Below are positions 4,308 to 10,274 of a stretch of 32,858 nt of DNA, piece by piece. This DNA is from Verrucomicrobiota bacterium. Lineage in GTDB: Bacteria; Verrucomicrobiota; Verrucomicrobiia; Opitutales; Opitutaceae. Position 1 is the first letter of the stretch. Each line of letters begins with the position of its first letter. The stretch covers positions 1 through 32,858 of the forward strand of contig CANIWJ010000036.1 of the NCBI GenBank assembly GCA_947471035.1, written 5' to 3'. The translations under genes and the position numbers were made by a program. The notes beneath the pieces were generated by a model. It had not been told where the DNA came from and ran no database searches. It saw only the letters and a program-made list of their open reading frames with translations.

Positions 4308-7300
4308 GTGGTTCGCAAAGCATCCTCTCCTGCCGCCCCCCTCCGCAACGCGCCGCCCGCCGCCGCGCCCGCCCCCGAGTGCATCCGCCTGCGCGGCGTG
4401 CGTCAAAACAACCTCAAGGGCTGGGACCTCGACCTCCCCCTCGGCCGCTACATCGTCGTCACCGGTCCCAGCGGCGCGGGCAAAAGCTCCCTCGTCTTCG
4501 ACACCCTGCACGCCGAGGGGCAGCGCCGCTACGTGGAGACTTTCTCCGCCTACACCCGCCAGTTCCTCGATCTGCTCGACAAACCCAAGGTGGACTCGAT
4601 CGAGAACATCCGCCCCTCCATCGCCATCGAGCAGACCAACACCGTAAAAACCTCCCGCTCCACCGTGGGCACCATGACCGAGCTGGCCGACTATTTTAAA
4701 GTCTGGTTCAGCCACGTAGCCACCTGCTTCGACCCCGCCACTGGCCAACCCGTCCAAGACGACACCCCCGCCACCATCTGGGCCCAAGCCAGCGCCACCC
4801 ACCCCGGACAGACCCTAGTCATCGCCTTCAAAATCTCCCGCCCCGCCAACCTTACCTGGTCCGAAATCCTTACCAGCCTCAAAGGCCAATCCTACGTCCG
4901 CGCTTTACTCCCTGCTCCGAACTCCTCGCCCTCCGCCCACCGCATCGACGACCTCCTCACCGATCCCTCCCCGCTCGCCGCCGCCGACCACCTCTTCGTC
5001 GCCCAAGACCGCATCACCCTTAATCCCGATGCCCGCCAGCGTTTCCTCGAAGCCGCCGAGCAAGCCCTCCACTTCGGCCAGGGCCAACTCCACCTTTTCG
5101 CCCCGGACGATTCCGCCCATTCTGCATTTGGCATTAGTCATTCGTCATTCCGCGCCGTCGGCGCGTTCTCCCGCGGCCTCCATTCCCCCGCCAGCGGCCG
5201 CACCTTCCGCCCCGCCTCACCCGCTCTCTTTTCCTTCAATTCCCCCCTCGGAGCTTGCCCGCGCTGCCGGGGTTTCGGACGCGTGATCGAAAATGATCTC
5301 AACCTCGCCATTCCCGACCGCTCCCTCTCTATCGCCAACGGCGCGATCAAAGCCTGGCAGGGTGAGACCTACGGCGAATCCCAAAAAGACCTGATTCGTT
5401 TCGCCAAAAAAATCAGCCTCCCCGTCAACGTCCCCTTCGCCGACCTCAGTCCCGCCCACCAAAAACTCGTCCTCGAGGGCGAGCCCGACTACGGCCAACC
5501 CGGCCGCGAGTGGCCCCACGCCTGGTATGGTCTCAAGGGCTTTTTCCAGTGGCTGGAAAAAAACACCTATAAGACCCACGTCCGCGTCTTCCTCTCCCGC
5601 TACCGTTCCTACAACGAGTGCCCCGACTGCCACGGCGCGCGCCTCGCCCCCGATTCCCTCTGCTGGAAATGGCAGGGCAAAACCCTGCCCGATCTCTATC
5701 AACTCCCCGTCTCCGAACTCACCGCCCTTATCGAAGATTGGTCCTTGGACACTGGACCTTCAGGCGATTCCGCCCGCAGTGCCCACCTCGCCTTCGACTC
5801 CATCCGAACCCGCCTGCGTTACCTAACCCAAGTCGGCCTTGGTTACCTCACCCTCGATCGCACCAGCAAGACCCTCTCCGGCGGCGAAACCATGCGCGTC
5901 GGCCTCACCGCATGCCTCGGCACCTCGCTGGTTGATACCCTCTTCGTCCTCGATGAGCCCTCCGTCGGCCTGCACCCCCGCGACATCGACCGCCTCATCG
6001 GCATCATCCGCACCTTGGTAAACGCGGGCAACACCGTCGTCGTCGTCGAGCACGACGAAGCCATGATCCGCGCCGCCGACCACGTGGTCGAGATCGGCCC
6101 CGTCCCCGGAACCAAAGGCGGCCACCTCGTCTTCCAAGGCGACCTCCCCTCGCTCCTCCGCCACCCCGCCTCCCTCACCGGAGCCTACCTCTCCGGCCGC
6201 CAAACCATCCCCACGCCGTCGACCCGCCGTCCCATTCGTCATTGGTCATTGGACATTGGTCATTCCGGACCAAGCCCCTGGCTCACATTCACGAATATCC
6301 AAAAACACAACATTCGCGGCATAGACCTCCGCCTCCCCCTCCACCGCTTCGTCGCCCTCTCCGGCGTCTCCGGCTCCGGCAAGTCCACCCTCCTCGACAA
6401 AGTCATCCACCAAGGCCTGCTCGCCAAACGCCGCCAGCTCACCGAAGACGTCGCCCACATCGACTCCATCACCGGCGACGACGCCTTCACCGAGATCGTG
6501 CTCGTGGACCAGTCCCCCCTCTCCCGCACCCCGCGCTCCAACCCCGCCCTCTACACCGAAGCGTGGGAACTCATCCGCGAACTCTACGCCGACACCCCCG
6601 CCGCCGAGGCCGCCGGCTTCAGTGCATCCAGTTTTTCCTTCAACGCCGGCGACGGCCGCTGCGACCACTGCCAGGGCCTCGGCTACGAGCGCGTCGAGAT
6701 GCAGTTCCTCTCCGACGTCTTCGTGCCCTGCCCCGTCTGCGAAGGCCGCCGTTTCAAGCCCGAGATCCTCGCCATCACCCACTTAGATAAATCCGTCGCC
6801 GACCTGCTCAACACGTCCGTCAGCGACGCCCTCGAACACTTCGCCGCCCACCCCGCCATCCGCGCCCGCCTCGCCGTGCTCGACGAAGTCGGCCTCGGCT
6901 ACCTCACCCTCGGCCAGCCCCTCAACACCCTCAGCGGCGGCGAAGCCCAACGCCTAAAACTCGTCAAATACCTTACCGGCTACACGACCGGAGAAACCCC
7001 AACGGCCAAAATCCAAATCCCCAAAAACGCACACGCCACCCGTCCTTTCGACATTGGTCATCCGTCATTGGTCATTGGTCATTCCGCCCCCGGCGGCGGC
7101 GCCCTCCTCCTCCTCGACGAGCCCACCACTGGCCTGCACCGCCACGACGTCGCCCGCCTGCTTCGTGTCCTCCAAGCCTTGGTGGATCGCGGCCACAGCC
7201 TGATCGTCATCGAGCACAACCTCGACGTGCTCAAATCCGCCGACTGGATCATCGAGATCGGCCCCGACGCCGGCTCTGGCGGCGGCCGCATCGTCGCCGA

Positions 7301-10274
7301 AGGCACGCCCGAAGACGTCTCCCGCACCCCCACCGCCACCGCCCCCTACCTCGCCCTCGCGCTATCAAGTAACCTATTGGGTTACTTTGCCGCCGACGCC
7401 GACCAACTCGCCGCCGAGCCCGACCCTTCGACAATCGACAATCGACATTCGTCATTCCGCGCCTCCAGAGCAGCCGTCCTTCGCGTCGAGGGCGCGCGCG
7501 AAAACAACCTAAAAAACCTCTCCCTCTCGATCCCCCACCGCCAGCTCAACGTCGTCACCGGCGTCTCCGGTTCCGGCAAGAGCACCCTCGCCTTCGATAT
7601 CATCTTCGGCGAAGGCCAGCGCCGCTTCATGGACTCCATGAGCGCCTACGCCCGCCAATTCGTGGAACAGATGCCGCGCCCCGCCGTGGACCGACTCACC
7701 GGCATCCCGCCCACCGTCGCCATCGAGCAACGCATCACCCGCGGCTCCCGCAAGAGCACCGTCGCCACCATCACCGAGGTCGCTCAATACCTCCGCCTCC
7801 TCTACGCCCGCCTCGGCATCCAGCATCACCCCGACACCGACCGCCCCGTCCGCCCCCTCAGCCGCCCCCAGCTCGCCCGCCTGCTCGCCGCCGTGGTCGC
7901 CTCCCCCGCCGGCAAAAAAGCGAAACACCTCTACCTCTGCGCCCCCCTCGTGCGCGGCCGCAAAGGACACCATCAACCCATCGCGACCTGGATCGAGGAC
8001 CACGGCTACGAACTCATGCGCGCCGACGGCCGCGTCTTCCCCGTCTCCGCCTTCGCCAAACTCGACCGCTACTCCGAGCACGATGTCGAGGTCGTCGTCG
8101 CCGACCTCAAAGCCTCCGTCGAAAAACCCTCAGCAAAACCCGCATCGAAAAATCACAAAAAACAAATCCCAAACTCCAAAGCTGCCCCCGCCTCCGATCC
8201 CCTCGACGAGGCCCTCCGCCTCGGCAAAGGCGCCTGTTTCCTCCTCACCGAAAAAGGCACCGTGCTCAGTTGGTTTTCCACCACCCGCACCGACGCCGAG
8301 ACCGGCGAGAGTTTTCCCGAACTCGACCCCAAGCACTTTTCGCACAACTCCCCCCGAGGCTGGTGTCCCACTTGCCGGGGCCACGGACGCGTTTTCCCCT
8401 GGATGCTCGTGCCCGACGACGACGCCAAAAACGACGACGATCCCTCCGCCCGCCTCCGCGCCTTCGGCATCGAAACCGAGGCCGACCTCGCCGACGCCGG
8501 TGCCGCCTGCCCCGACTGCCACGGCCAGCGCCTTGCCCGCATTCCCCGCGCCGTGAAACTCCACTTCACCGGCAAACACCCACCCCTCTCCCTCCCCCAA
8601 CTGCTCGCCGCCCCGCCCGCCTCGCTCCTGCGCAGCCTTGACCAGCTCGACCTCGACGAACGTGGCCGCGCCATCGTGCAAGACATCCTGCCCCAGATCC
8701 GCGAACGCCTCAAATTCCTCGACCACGTCGGCCTCGGCTACCTCAGCCTCGACCGCCCCACCGACACCCTCAGCGGCGGCGAAGCCCAGCGCATCCGCCT
8801 CGCCGCCCAGCTCGGCACCAACCTCGCCGGCGTGCTCTACGTGCTGGATGAGCCCTCCATCGGCCTGCACGCCCGCGACAACGACCGCCTCATCGAGACC
8901 CTCCAGGCCCTGCGCGACAAAGGAAACACCCTCCTCGTCGTCGAGCACGACGACGACCTCATGGAGCGCTGCGACCACCTCATCGACCTCGGCCCCGCCG
9001 CCGGCATCCACGGCGGCGAGATCTTGGCCGAGGGCACCCCCGCCGAAGTGAAGCGCATCGAAAAATCCCTCACCGGCCGCTACCTCAGCCACGGCATCAA
9101 ACACCCCTTGCGCGGTTCCTACCGCGAAATCCCAAATCACAAAAAGCCAAAGTCTAAAAAAGAAACAAGTGCCCTACTGACCCTGACCGGCGCGTCCCTG
9201 CGCAACCTCAAAGGCTTCGACGTCCAAATCCCGCTCGGCCGCCTGACGATGGTCTGCGGCCCGAGCGGCGCGGGCAAATCCACCCTCTTCCGCGACCTGC
9301 TCCACCCCGCCGTCGCCCACGCGATCAAAACCAAGACCGCCAAGCTCACCGGCAAAGCCTACTCCAAAGCCACTGCCCACGCTTCCGACTCCGGCCATTC
9401 GTCATCCGAAATTCGTCATTCGTCATTCTTGTTTGAAAACCTGAGCGGCGCTCAGGTTTTCAAACAAATCATCGAGGTGGACCAGTCCCCCATCGGCAAA
9501 ACCCCGCGCTCCACCCCCGCCACCTACCTGGGCATCTTCGACCTCATCCGCACCTTCTTCGCCGGCATTCCCGAGTCTCAAATCCGCGGCTACACCGCCG
9601 GACGCTTTTCCTTCAACACCGCCGGCGGCCGCTGCGAAACCTGCTCCGGCGGCGGGCGCGTGAAACTCGAAATGGCCTTCATGCCCGACACCTACCTGCC
9701 GTGCGATGACTGCCGGGGCACCCGCTACGCGCCCGAGTTATCCGACCTCCGCTGGAAGGGCAAAAACATCGCCGACGTGCTCGCACTCACCTTCGATGAA
9801 GCCGTCGCCTACTTTGATTTTCACAGCCAACTAAGCCAAGTCTGCCAACTCATGTGCGACTGCGGCCTGGGTTACCTAACCCTCGGTCAATCGTCTCCCA
9901 CGCTCTCTGGCGGTGAAGCCCAGCGCCTCAAACTCGTGACCGAGCTCACCCACGGCCTCGCCAGCTACCGCGAACGCAGCCGCAACATCGGTTTTCAAAA
10001 CCTCTACATCCTCGAAGAGCCCACCATCGGCCTCCACCTGAGCGACTGCGAAAAACTCATCGGCGTGCTCCACGCCCTCGTCGATCAAGGCCATACCGTG
10101 ATCGTGATCGAGCACCACCTCGACCTCCTCGCCGAAGCCGACTGGATATTGGAACTCGGCCCGGTCGGCGGCCCCGACGGCGGCGAACTCCTCTACCAAG
10201 GACCCCTCGCCGGTCTCCTGAAACTAAAAAACTCCCCCACCGCCCCCTACCTCCGCACCAAACTCAAACTTTGA
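4308..10274 (+). CDS. uvrA: Giant tandem excinuclease ABC subunit A (double UvrA, four ABC modules)
   Basis: UvrA is the damage-sensing ATPase of nucleotide excision repair and loads UvrB. At 1988 residues this is about twice the usual 940, with two complete UvrA units fused. Walker A motifs lie at residues 53, 686, 1085 and 1651; LSGGE signatures at 523, 875, 1488 and 1866; Walker B acidic pairs at 549, 937, 1514 and 1903. Paired CxxC zinc modules occur in both units (for example CPRC 317-320 and CPDC 438-441), with the DQSPIG(K/R)TPRS-type stretch of the second half of UvrA in both units. Two motifs deviate: the first signature reads LSGGETMRV, and the fourth Walker B is LEEPT instead of LDEPT. 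Doubled UvrA is known from Chlamydia (about 1786 residues). The extra length here includes repeat-derived linkers, listed separately. The start is GTG with no Shine-Dalgarno sequence, and codons are strongly C-ending. Confidence 0.95.
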   Translation: MVRKASSPAAPLRNAPPAAAPAPECIRLRGVRQNNLKGWDLDLPLGRYIVVTGPSGAGKSSLVFDTLHAEGQRRYVETFSAYTRQFLDLLDKPKVDSIENIRPSIAIEQTNTVKTSRSTVGTMTELADYFKVWFSHVATCFDPATGQPVQDDTPATIWAQASATHPGQTLVIAFKISRPANLTWSEILTSLKGQSYVRALLPAPNSSPSAHRIDDLLTDPSPLAAADHLFVAQDRITLNPDARQRFLEAAEQALHFGQGQLHLFAPDDSAHSAFGISHSSFRAVGAFSRGLHSPASGRTFRPASPALFSFNSPLGACPRCRGFGRVIENDLNLAIPDRSLSIANGAIKAWQGETYGESQKDLIRFAKKISLPVNVPFADLSPAHQKLVLEGEPDYGQPGREWPHAWYGLKGFFQWLEKNTYKTHVRVFLSRYRSYNECPDCHGARLAPDSLCWKWQGKTLPDLYQLPVSELTALIEDWSLDTGPSGDSARSAHLAFDSIRTRLRYLTQVGLGYLTLDRTSKTLSGGETMRVGLTACLGTSLVDTLFVLDEPSVGLHPRDIDRLIGIIRTLVNAGNTVVVVEHDEAMIRAADHVVEIGPVPGTKGGHLVFQGDLPSLLRHPASLTGAYLSGRQTIPTPSTRRPIRHWSLDIGHSGPSPWLTFTNIQKHNIRGIDLRLPLHRFVALSGVSGSGKSTLLDKVIHQGLLAKRRQLTEDVAHIDSITGDDAFTEIVLVDQSPLSRTPRSNPALYTEAWELIRELYADTPAAEAAGFSASSFSFNAGDGRCDHCQGLGYERVEMQFLSDVFVPCPVCEGRRFKPEILAITHLDKSVADLLNTSVSDALEHFAAHPAIRARLAVLDEVGLGYLTLGQPLNTLSGGEAQRLKLVKYLTGYTTGETPTAKIQIPKNAHATRPFDIGHPSLVIGHSAPGGGALLLLDEPTTGLHRHDVARLLRVLQALVDRGHSLIVIEHNLDVLKSADWIIEIGPDAGSGGGRIVAEGTPEDVSRTPTATAPYLALALSSNLLGYFAADADQLAAEPDPSTIDNRHSSFRASRAAVLRVEGARENNLKNLSLSIPHRQLNVVTGVSGSGKSTLAFDIIFGEGQRRFMDSMSAYARQFVEQMPRPAVDRLTGIPPTVAIEQRITRGSRKSTVATITEVAQYLRLLYARLGIQHHPDTDRPVRPLSRPQLARLLAAVVASPAGKKAKHLYLCAPLVRGRKGHHQPIATWIEDHGYELMRADGRVFPVSAFAKLDRYSEHDVEVVVADLKASVEKPSAKPASKNHKKQIPNSKAAPASDPLDEALRLGKGACFLLTEKGTVLSWFSTTRTDAETGESFPELDPKHFSHNSPRGWCPTCRGHGRVFPWMLVPDDDAKNDDDPSARLRAFGIETEADLADAGAACPDCHGQRLARIPRAVKLHFTGKHPPLSLPQLLAAPPASLLRSLDQLDLDERGRAIVQDILPQIRERLKFLDHVGLGYLSLDRPTDTLSGGEAQRIRLAAQLGTNLAGVLYVLDEPSIGLHARDNDRLIETLQALRDKGNTLLVVEHDDDLMERCDHLIDLGPAAGIHGGEILAEGTPAEVKRIEKSLTGRYLSHGIKHPLRGSYREIPNHKKPKSKKETSALLTLTGASLRNLKGFDVQIPLGRLTMVCGPSGAGKSTLFRDLLHPAVAHAIKTKTAKLTGKAYSKATAHASDSGHSSSEIRHSSFLFENLSGAQVFKQIIEVDQSPIGKTPRSTPATYLGIFDLIRTFFAGIPESQIRGYTAGRFSFNTAGGRCETCSGGGRVKLEMAFMPDTYLPCDDCRGTRYAPELSDLRWKGKNIADVLALTFDEAVAYFDFHSQLSQVCQLMCDCGLGYLTLGQSSPTLSGGEAQRLKLVTELTHGLASYRERSRNIGFQNLYILEEPTIGLHLSDCEKLIGVLHALVDQGHTVIVIEHHLDLLAEADWILELGPVGGPDGGELLYQGPLAGLLKLKNSPTAPYLRTKLKL
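5118..5152 (+). repeat. CATT-type heptamer array A inside uvrA
   Basis: Five head-to-tail 7-bp units: CATTCTG, CATTTGG, CATTAGT, CATTCGT, CATTCCG. It encodes residues about 271-282 (HSAFGISHSSFR), in a poorly conserved linker just before the FSFNSP-GACPRC zinc region of the first UvrA unit. Confidence 0.85.
5737..5764 (+). repeat. Degenerate heptamer array B inside uvrA
   Basis: Four degenerate 7-bp units: ATTGGTC, CTTGGAC, ACTGGAC, CTTCAGG. It encodes WSLDTGPSG (residues about 477-486), which resembles WSLDIGHSG encoded at array C. It lies in a linker before the VGLGYLTL region of the first ATPase module. Confidence 0.55.
6233..6267 (+). repeat. CATT-type heptamer array C inside uvrA
   Basis: Five 7-bp units: CATTCGT, CATTGGT, CATTGGA, CATTGGT, CATTCCG. 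It encodes residues about 642-654 (IRHWSLDIGHSG) in the linker between the two ATPase halves of the first UvrA unit. The reading phase differs from array A, so the peptide differs although the DNA is alike. Confidence 0.87.
7006..7027 (+). repeat. A-rich heptamer array (second family) inside uvrA
   Basis: Three units of the form CCAAANN (CCAAAAT, CCAAATC, one extra C, CCAAAAA). It lies 24 bases upstream of array D, in the same insertion between the second LSGGE signature and Walker B of uvrA. Confidence 0.5.
7052..7086 (+). repeat. CATT-type heptamer array D inside uvrA
   Basis: Five 7-bp units: CATTGGT, CATCCGT, CATTGGT, CATTGGT, CATTCCG, with a degenerate CTTTCGA just before. It encodes residues about 915-927 (DIGHPSLVIGHS). 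It sits between the signature motif (875) and Walker B (937), where ordinary UvrA proteins have a much shorter connection. Confidence 0.87.
7367..7393 (+). repeat. Palindromic repeat, copy 1 (inside uvrA)
   Basis: The inverted repeat AAGTAACC-TATTG-GGTTACTT (7367-7387) has 8-bp arms. The 27-base stretch 7367-7393 matches 14526-14552 with only two differences. Here it is translated, in frame, as SSNLLGYFAA, between the two UvrA units. Confidence 0.75.
7425..7459 (+). repeat. CATT-type heptamer array E inside uvrA
   Basis: Five units: CCTTCGA, CAATCGA, CAATCGA, CATTCGT, CATTCCG. It encodes PSTIDNRHSSFR (residues about 1040-1051) exactly at the joint between the first and second UvrA units, 32 bases after palindrome copy 1. 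Confidence 0.8.
8148..8182 (+). repeat. A-rich heptamer array G (second family) inside uvrA
   Basis: Five units: AAAAATC, ACAAAAA, ACAAATC, CCAAACT, CCAAAGC, again 35 bp. It encodes the Lys/Asn/Ser-rich linker KNHKKQIPNSK (about residues 1281-1292) in the second UvrA unit, after the VEVVVADL segment. Confidence 0.65.
9125..9160 (+). repeat. A-rich heptamer array H (second family) inside uvrA
   Basis: Units CGAAATC, CCAAATC, ACAAAAA, (G), CCAAAGT, CTAAAAA, 36 bp including one extra base. It encodes EIPNHKKPKSKK in the linker between the two ATPase halves of the second UvrA unit. Confidence 0.6.
9396..9430 (+). repeat. CATT-type heptamer array F inside uvrA
   Basis: Five units: CATTCGT, CATCCGA, AATTCGT, CATTCGT, CATTCTT. 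It encodes HSSSEIRHSSFL (residues about 1697-1708), between the fourth Walker A and the VDQSPIGKTPRS stretch. It runs directly into the perfect hairpin at 9429. Confidence 0.83.
9429..9467 (+). repeat. Perfect 18-bp-arm hairpin inside uvrA
   Basis: Left arm TTGTTTGAAAACCTGAGC (9429-9446), loop GGC, right arm its exact reverse complement (9450-9467). It is translated as LFENLSGAQVFKQ. A terminator-like role is unlikely in mid-gene; it looks like an inserted palindromic element. Confidence 0.85.

Follow-up and report, generated by a model that had tools for sequence, protein, structure and literature searches.

Heptamer arrays in the linkers of a fused double uvrA gene as plausible local members of a dispersed, exchangeable repeat class in Opitutales

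Why should a single DNA-repair gene hold short tandem repeats of one kind at six separate points? The question arises in an Opitutaceae bacterium (assembly GCA_947471035.1, 3.64 Mb in 232 contigs), whose entire contig C36 is the stretch of DNA analysed here (the window, 32,858 nucleotides). An uninterrupted frame on its forward strand, 4308–10274, encodes a fused double UvrA of 1988 residues that carries the arrays. An ORF check found no stop within it, four Walker A motifs are visible by eye in the product, and the NCBIfam profiles return two UvrA equivalogs that match four to five stretches. UvrA-like matches were present in 38 of 38 genomes searched, this one counted in; it also has a further UvrA-like protein, a 1028-residue open frame on contig C112. 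Rfam gave no match at gathering score between 4300 and 10300.

The six arrays are located between conserved UvrA blocks, all on the plus strand. A1 lies at 5118–5152 (five heptamers, final unit CATTCCG, peptide HSAFGISHSSFR), A3 at 6233–6267 (five heptamers, peptide PIRHWSLDIGHSG), A4 at 7052–7086 (five heptamers, DIGHPSLVIGHSA) and A6 at 9396–9430 (five heptamers, final unit CATTCTT, HSSSEIRHSSFL). A5 (7425–7459) is mixed: CCTTCGA CAATCGA CAATCGA CATTCGT CATTCCG. A2 (5737–5764) consists of four degenerate ATTGGTC-type units. A preliminary description of this DNA had reported five 35-bp arrays, most ending in CATTCCG, and a sixth, degenerate one. Coordinates and lengths of the five were verified and four of them end as described, A6 being the exception. 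The proposed CATTNGT unit does not fit the array at 7425, where only the last two units start with CATT. The sixth array is degenerate in this genome, whereas relative G012 has five clean CATTGGT-type units there. Similar arrays are indeed absent elsewhere in the window: at up to three mismatches CATTNGTCATTNGTCATT has 15 matches, all within 5118–9434 (shuffled-window mean 0.11, maximum 2). With GTCATTSGTCATT at up to two mismatches there are 17, three of them outside uvrA and about one in total expected by chance, and outside the gene the CATTNGT pattern is not above chance. The arrays keep the frame open from 4308 to 10274, and their reading phases differ as claimed, though the starts (0, 2, 2, 0, 0) use two of the three phases. 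The further proposal that each arrival was repaired to frame adds an unnecessary step, since only frame-keeping events would persist.

A search of the whole assembly revealed a dispersed family. Exact CATTNGTCATTNGTCATT occurs 97 times and its reversed control not once. Stretches around every exact match, together with the window, yielded 59 arrays under the analysis rule, of which 47 contain the exact 18-mer. Genes around them were called with a home-made codon-score caller, which placed 33 of the 47 exact arrays and 41 of all 59 in intergenic DNA. The intergenic ones are mostly sense to flanking genes (30, against 7 antisense and 4 mixed), as are the intragenic ones (16 against 2 antisense). 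Cyanobacterial STRR heptamers include TTGGTCA, a rotation of CATTGGT, and would then have the same unit as here. The kinship to known heptamer repeats that the preliminary description had drawn holds in head-to-tail 7-bp units, many loci, mainly intergenic position and variable unit number. Unit number ranges from 4 to 11, with five units in 35 of 59 arrays; in 30 of 59 the length is exactly four complete units followed by a last CATT, and only 3 fall short of this, under a length rule that admits three units and an exact-18-mer selection that favours longer arrays. At least one short array (L089) is truncated by a contig end. The ends of contigs C71 and C110 (L089 1992–2019 and L094 2041–2075) share an identical array and flank; they are probably one place split by the assembly, and the counts may contain one duplicate.

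uvrA contains three of the 47 exact arrays, where 0.077 would be expected from its length (p = 7e-5, computed post hoc after the cluster had been seen). Identical whole-array pairs number 13 against 6.6 expected, a weak excess reached in 58 of 2000 shuffles. TAG-stop avoidance in intragenic arrays was not significant (5 of 53 units versus 26 of 172, p = 0.37), and autocorrelation of this genome's bulk intergenic DNA gave no lag-7 peak. A random sample of the genome gave zero arrays, a figure that is biased because the sample came mainly from contigs without exact arrays, and it was excluded from the density estimate. Other short pyrimidine-rich repeats, of AGCTCCC and CTAGCTT type and, in G004, TTTTCCGC octamers, adjoin CATTNGT arrays or occupy their place (L072, L088, L096 and L097 beside the arrays; L307, L308).

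The alignment of relatives' uvrA proposed in the preliminary description shows other units, a REP or nothing at many of the array points. We surveyed 78 readable linker stretches of the genus for the six sites, the present genome included, at a heptamer score threshold of 8 and with one stretch per genome and site (G005 had two differing contigs, and one was dropped). A heptamer array, of CATTNGT or another unit, was found in 25 of the 78, five of them in the present genome, while lags 4, 5, 6, 8, 9, 10 and 11 gave only 0–2 stretches each; a GTAG REP-like palindrome occupies 5 further stretches. Site A2 has five clean units in G012 and a REP-like palindrome in G003, G004 and G013. The CATTNGT-family unit is kept by G003 at A6 and by G012 at A2 and A3. 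By eye, site A6 carries CATTCGT in the present genome and G003, a CCTNGCT type in G005, G006, G009, G010 and G014, a weak CCTCAGG type in G001, a REP in G004 and a perfect palindrome in G008, with nothing clear in G011 and nothing in G002 and G012. No target duplications were seen in the few alignments inspected by eye. Because many relatives differ at the same points, these alignments support the view that the uvrA arrays belong to repeat DNA and do not reflect a conserved protein sequence.

The preference for period 7 extends across uvrA sequences. A wider set of 97 distinct sequences, whole or partial and mostly from Opitutae by their titles (521 kb), contains 141 lag-7 segments, compared with 2, 1, 6, 1, 1 and 9 at control lags 4, 5, 8, 10, 11 and 13. 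With the window added, this set gave 146 arrays, spread over 53 genome labels, and 77 measured 30–35 bp; because the sequences are related, such counts are not independent events. At the same threshold, 240 kb sampled from the complete genome G018 gave 12 lag-7 segments and 1, 4, 4, 0 and 3 at lags 5, 8, 10, 11 and 13. Period 7 is therefore not confined to uvrA, yet it is denser there. Homogeneous arrays in G018 reach 20 units.

Units are shared within genomes. Among 190 pairs of arrays at different uvrA sites of one genome, 22.1% have units at most one change apart. When genomes were shuffled within sites, which preserves site and not phylogeny, the share was 6.1%, and the observed value was reached in 0 of 300 trials. 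Between genomes at the same uvrA site, 11.1% of pairs have units within one change. As predicted beforehand, GAACRTC, the uvrA unit of L216 and L224, recurs in the respective genomes, with 26 and 46 matches (at most one mismatch, overlapping windows included), and six other genomes have 0. The genome of L218 has 25 matches to GAACRTC, but its own uvrA arrays are of other units. The prediction failed in part for ATCTCAA: in G043 it is confined to uvrA (6 of 6 matches on the uvrA contig), and genome-wide dispersal is therefore not general. G044 has this unit in uvrA and one other place, and G003 and G000 have two matches each.

Heptamers are not the only repeats to settle in uvrA. In the sister genome G004 a GTAG REP occurs 30 times at up to two mismatches. 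Four of these are in uvrA, where 0.065 would be expected; they fall close to residues 478, 897, 1049 and 1696, within or beside linkers A2, A4, A5 and A6. A 2013 paper (PMC3733652) had already described REPs within the two uvrA genes of Opitutus terrae. Permissive linkers, not a heptamer preference for uvrA, therefore explain the clustering. The earlier view of uvrA as an unusual, repeatedly hit gene is supported as to the excess over length; that the gene is special to heptamers is not supported, since REPs land there too. The uvrA linkers are best read as tolerant places in which REPs and copies of arrays arrive and are exchanged, with the reading frame as a filter.

Turnover is also evident between genes. 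One orthologous gene has CATTNGT arrays on both sides in the present genome. Its counterpart in G007 (88–89% amino-acid identity) has a short upstream CATTNGT array followed by other pyrimidine-rich repeats, that in G004 (93%) is flanked on either side by period-8 repeats of TTTTCCGC type, that in G013 an apparent REP pair upstream, and G005, G006 and G008 among others have period-8 or mixed repeats downstream. In 30 spacer stretches beside this gene the threshold was reached at lag 8 in 7, at lag 7 in 4 and at other lags in 0–2; intergenic arrays are therefore replaced by other short tandem repeats, not by heptamers alone. Across the phylum, a 25-mer CATTNGT array was found patchily, in 16 of 288 genomes drawn. 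CATTNGT arrays were also noted in 65 viral-contig stretches of IMG/VR (L324–L388).

Several arrays adjoin hairpins, and arrays pair in one arrangement. On the plus strand, a flank hairpin search found a perfect CGCGCC-gtc-GGCGCG one base past the last CATT of A1 (5151–5165) and a short CCGCC-ccc-GGCGG directly past that of A4 (7084–7096); the search together with alignment identified a perfect 15-bp hairpin, TTTGAAAACCTGAGC-ggc-GCTCAGGTTTTCAAA, adjoining A6 (9432–9464), which by eye is imperfect at the matching codons in G003 and G001. With a stem of at least 6 required within 36 bases after the last CATT, 16 of 55 arrays of this genome have a downstream hairpin, 12 of the 16 starting within 2 bases, against 3% in shuffles (4 of the 59 arrays were excluded for short flanks); the upstream flanks have one in 0 of 55. 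G018 gave 8 of 14 downstream versus 0 of 14 upstream. In the wider uvrA set the excess is weaker (stem of at least 6; 23 of 127 after versus 12 of 127 before, background 4.7%), after exclusion of 19 of 146 arrays that had a second array or the end of the gene too close by. Stem sequences in the present genome vary freely, CATT being the sole conserved end. At L209 and L174, by eye, one hairpin arm resembles an inverted copy of downstream conserved coding sequence, which suggests template switching. The inverted pairs within 250 bp in this genome comprise 7 outward and 0 inward, and 7 of the 9 antisense arrays are partners in outward pairs. Other palindromes were noted by eye: a perfect hairpin AAGTAACC-tattg-GGTTACTT at 7367–7387, upstream of A5, and two GTGTAACC...GGTTACAC palindromes in the A5 linker of G004. 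Several G018 arrays (L240, L241, L244–L246) are preceded by a common stretch resembling CCTGCTAACCGCGCCAGCG, and several are followed by a GC-rich hairpin of variable sequence, suggesting a larger unit.

Array strand was further examined along chromosomes. In G018 a fit with two strand switches accommodates 13 of 13 CATTNGT and 49 of 52 CTCAACT arrays, a fit reached by 6 of 400 and 0 of 400 shuffles, respectively, and the switches are near those of GC skew. The reversed-pattern control is uninformative here, the unit being nearly identical when read backwards. In sampled stretches of G018, 115 of 196 predicted genes fit the array-strand halves. A separate set of 20 G018 stretches was inspected for gene sense (one without a segment at threshold), and 2 of the 3 exceptions are in or between genes on the array's strand. 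In G010, 17 of 19 arrays fit two switches, as did 18 of 400 shuffles. Because gene sense also matters and some shuffles match the G010 fit, replication polarity of the arrays is suggestive only.

We give a probability of about 0.5 to the reading that the uvrA arrays are local members of a dispersed Opitutales class of heptamer arrays, gained as copies, filtered by the reading frame and turned over. A new array would be a copy of about 35 bp from an array already present in the genome or in the same gene, made perhaps by a short template switch in replication or repair, or by REPIN-like mobilisation. Point changes and gain or loss of units would follow. Between genes the arrays are mainly in sense orientation and lie after one gene's stop and ahead of the following start, and within genes the survivors would be frame-keeping, stop-free copies in linkers that tolerate extra residues. 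Being rich in such linkers, the fused double UvrA would gather arrays, and REPs at the same points in a sister species; between species, one unit would give way to another at the same site.

The strongest competitor, possible though clearly less probable, is pure local replication slippage, mostly with a 7-nt step, in which arrays are born in place, expand and are tolerated in frame by the linkers. Among long simple repeats, heptamers are reported to be the most frequent in most genomes and have been linked to slippage of the polymerase (Mrazek et al. 2007, cited in PMC4679880 and PMC4692102), and the long homogeneous arrays of G018 are what slippage makes. The limitation of ATCTCAA to uvrA in G043, the many different units and the octamers at one intergenic place are likewise consistent with birth in place. 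However, slippage would not readily account for a length peak at five units with almost none shorter (a peak that the exact-18-mer choice favours), for one unit at dozens of loci in the present genome, or for inverted pairs in a single arrangement in 7 of 7 cases. Of the mobile or slippage-born units earlier supposed, those born by slippage alone are hard to reconcile with a length distribution whose lower edge is at five units.

A more specific proposal, and a doubtful one as a whole, is that a hitherto undescribed copying process in Opitutales installs pre-formed arrays of about five heptamers. It would place them in a single orientation with respect to transcription, and perhaps also to replication, in many cases as outward pairs and next to a hairpin that is complementary to host sequence; the unit would be lineage-specific and template-like, and the fused uvrA would record the replacements. 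We consider it unlikely that the array, by itself or paired outward with its hairpin, is a true mobile element, a non-autonomous transposon for which a Y1/RAYT-like or other transposase acts in trans. The dispersed family, the outward pairs and the adjacent hairpins would suit such an element, as would GTAG REPs in the same uvrA linkers and the strand polarity along the G018 chromosome. The outward pairs presumably resemble REPINs. REP dimers described in the accessible part of PMC3733652 offer a comparison. Against this, the arrays have no conserved end besides CATT and freely varying stems, no target duplication was seen by eye, and the polarity is partly gene sense (2 of 3 G018 exceptions), the G010 fit being matched by 18 of 400 shuffles. 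A transposase link found no support in the loci covered: arrays were absent from the surroundings of 14 inspected Y1 loci, a subset of the listed Y1 matches that includes one of the two in the present genome, and the number of Y1 genes does not, by eye, follow that of the arrays. Selection on the protein sequence, with linkers functional in UvrA and the DNA repeat secondary, would explain why the sites recur across Opitutales, but it is very improbable and was dismissed, as the peptides of many relatives at these points are unrelated, or a REP or nothing is present, and 41 of 59 arrays of the same DNA family are outside genes.

In the copy-and-turnover reading preferred here, the fused uvrA is a natural record of the coming and going of heptamer repeats. 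The gene is alignable and frame-limited and has, across many species, differing units, REPs or nothing at the same coding sites, making array gain, copying and replacement directly countable, and its period of 7 persists over many unit sequences.

For the spread of heptamers in bacteria, the literature, as far as accessible, names slippage or an unknown transfer. Beyond PMC4692102, PMC4679880, PMC3733652 and PMC9879509, nothing further on arrays in Verrucomicrobia or uvrA was found in the open-licence literature. According to the accessible text of PMC4692102, the GGGAATC arrays of Xanthomonas and GGGGAYT arrays of Nostoc are, like those of the present genome, dispersed, 7-bp and mostly intergenic (89–93% in Xanthomonas), and two xanthomonads have 70 and 75 close convergent GGGAATC pairs, which read on the pyrimidine strand correspond to the outward arrangement seen here. 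Those arrays are G-rich and G4-forming, and that text reports no leading/lagging preference for them; the Opitutales arrays differ in having many other units, in recurring in one coding gene and in unit replacement at fixed sites. TAACTGA repeats are described in the accessible part of PMC4679880 from Beggiatoaceae, cyanobacteria and Bacteroidetes as one unit across phyla, with 2–6 copies in the genome of Beggiatoa and as many as 43 in others, with few within ORFs and with a discussion of their tolerance between protein modules, whereas the Opitutales arrays show many units and a five-unit mode. The GTAG REPs of PMC3733652 are, in its accessible text, short repeats in uvrA, often dimers, with repair genes as frequent hosts; they are palindromes with a GTAG tag, whereas the uvrA arrays are head-to-tail direct repeats without GTAG and the adjoining hairpins, unlike REP palindromes, vary in sequence. 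Borg tandem repeats, in the accessible text of PMC9879509, are fast-evolving and genic like the uvrA arrays, but their ORF units are divisible by three and the 7-bp unit is not. Set against a MITE, the arrays of this genome form outward pairs, with no target duplication in the few alignments viewed. Heptamer arrays, and REPs in Opitutus uvrA, are already in print; the record is extended here by the exchange of units at coding sites that stay fixed, by the mode of five units and by inverted pairs that occur in one arrangement and next to hairpins.
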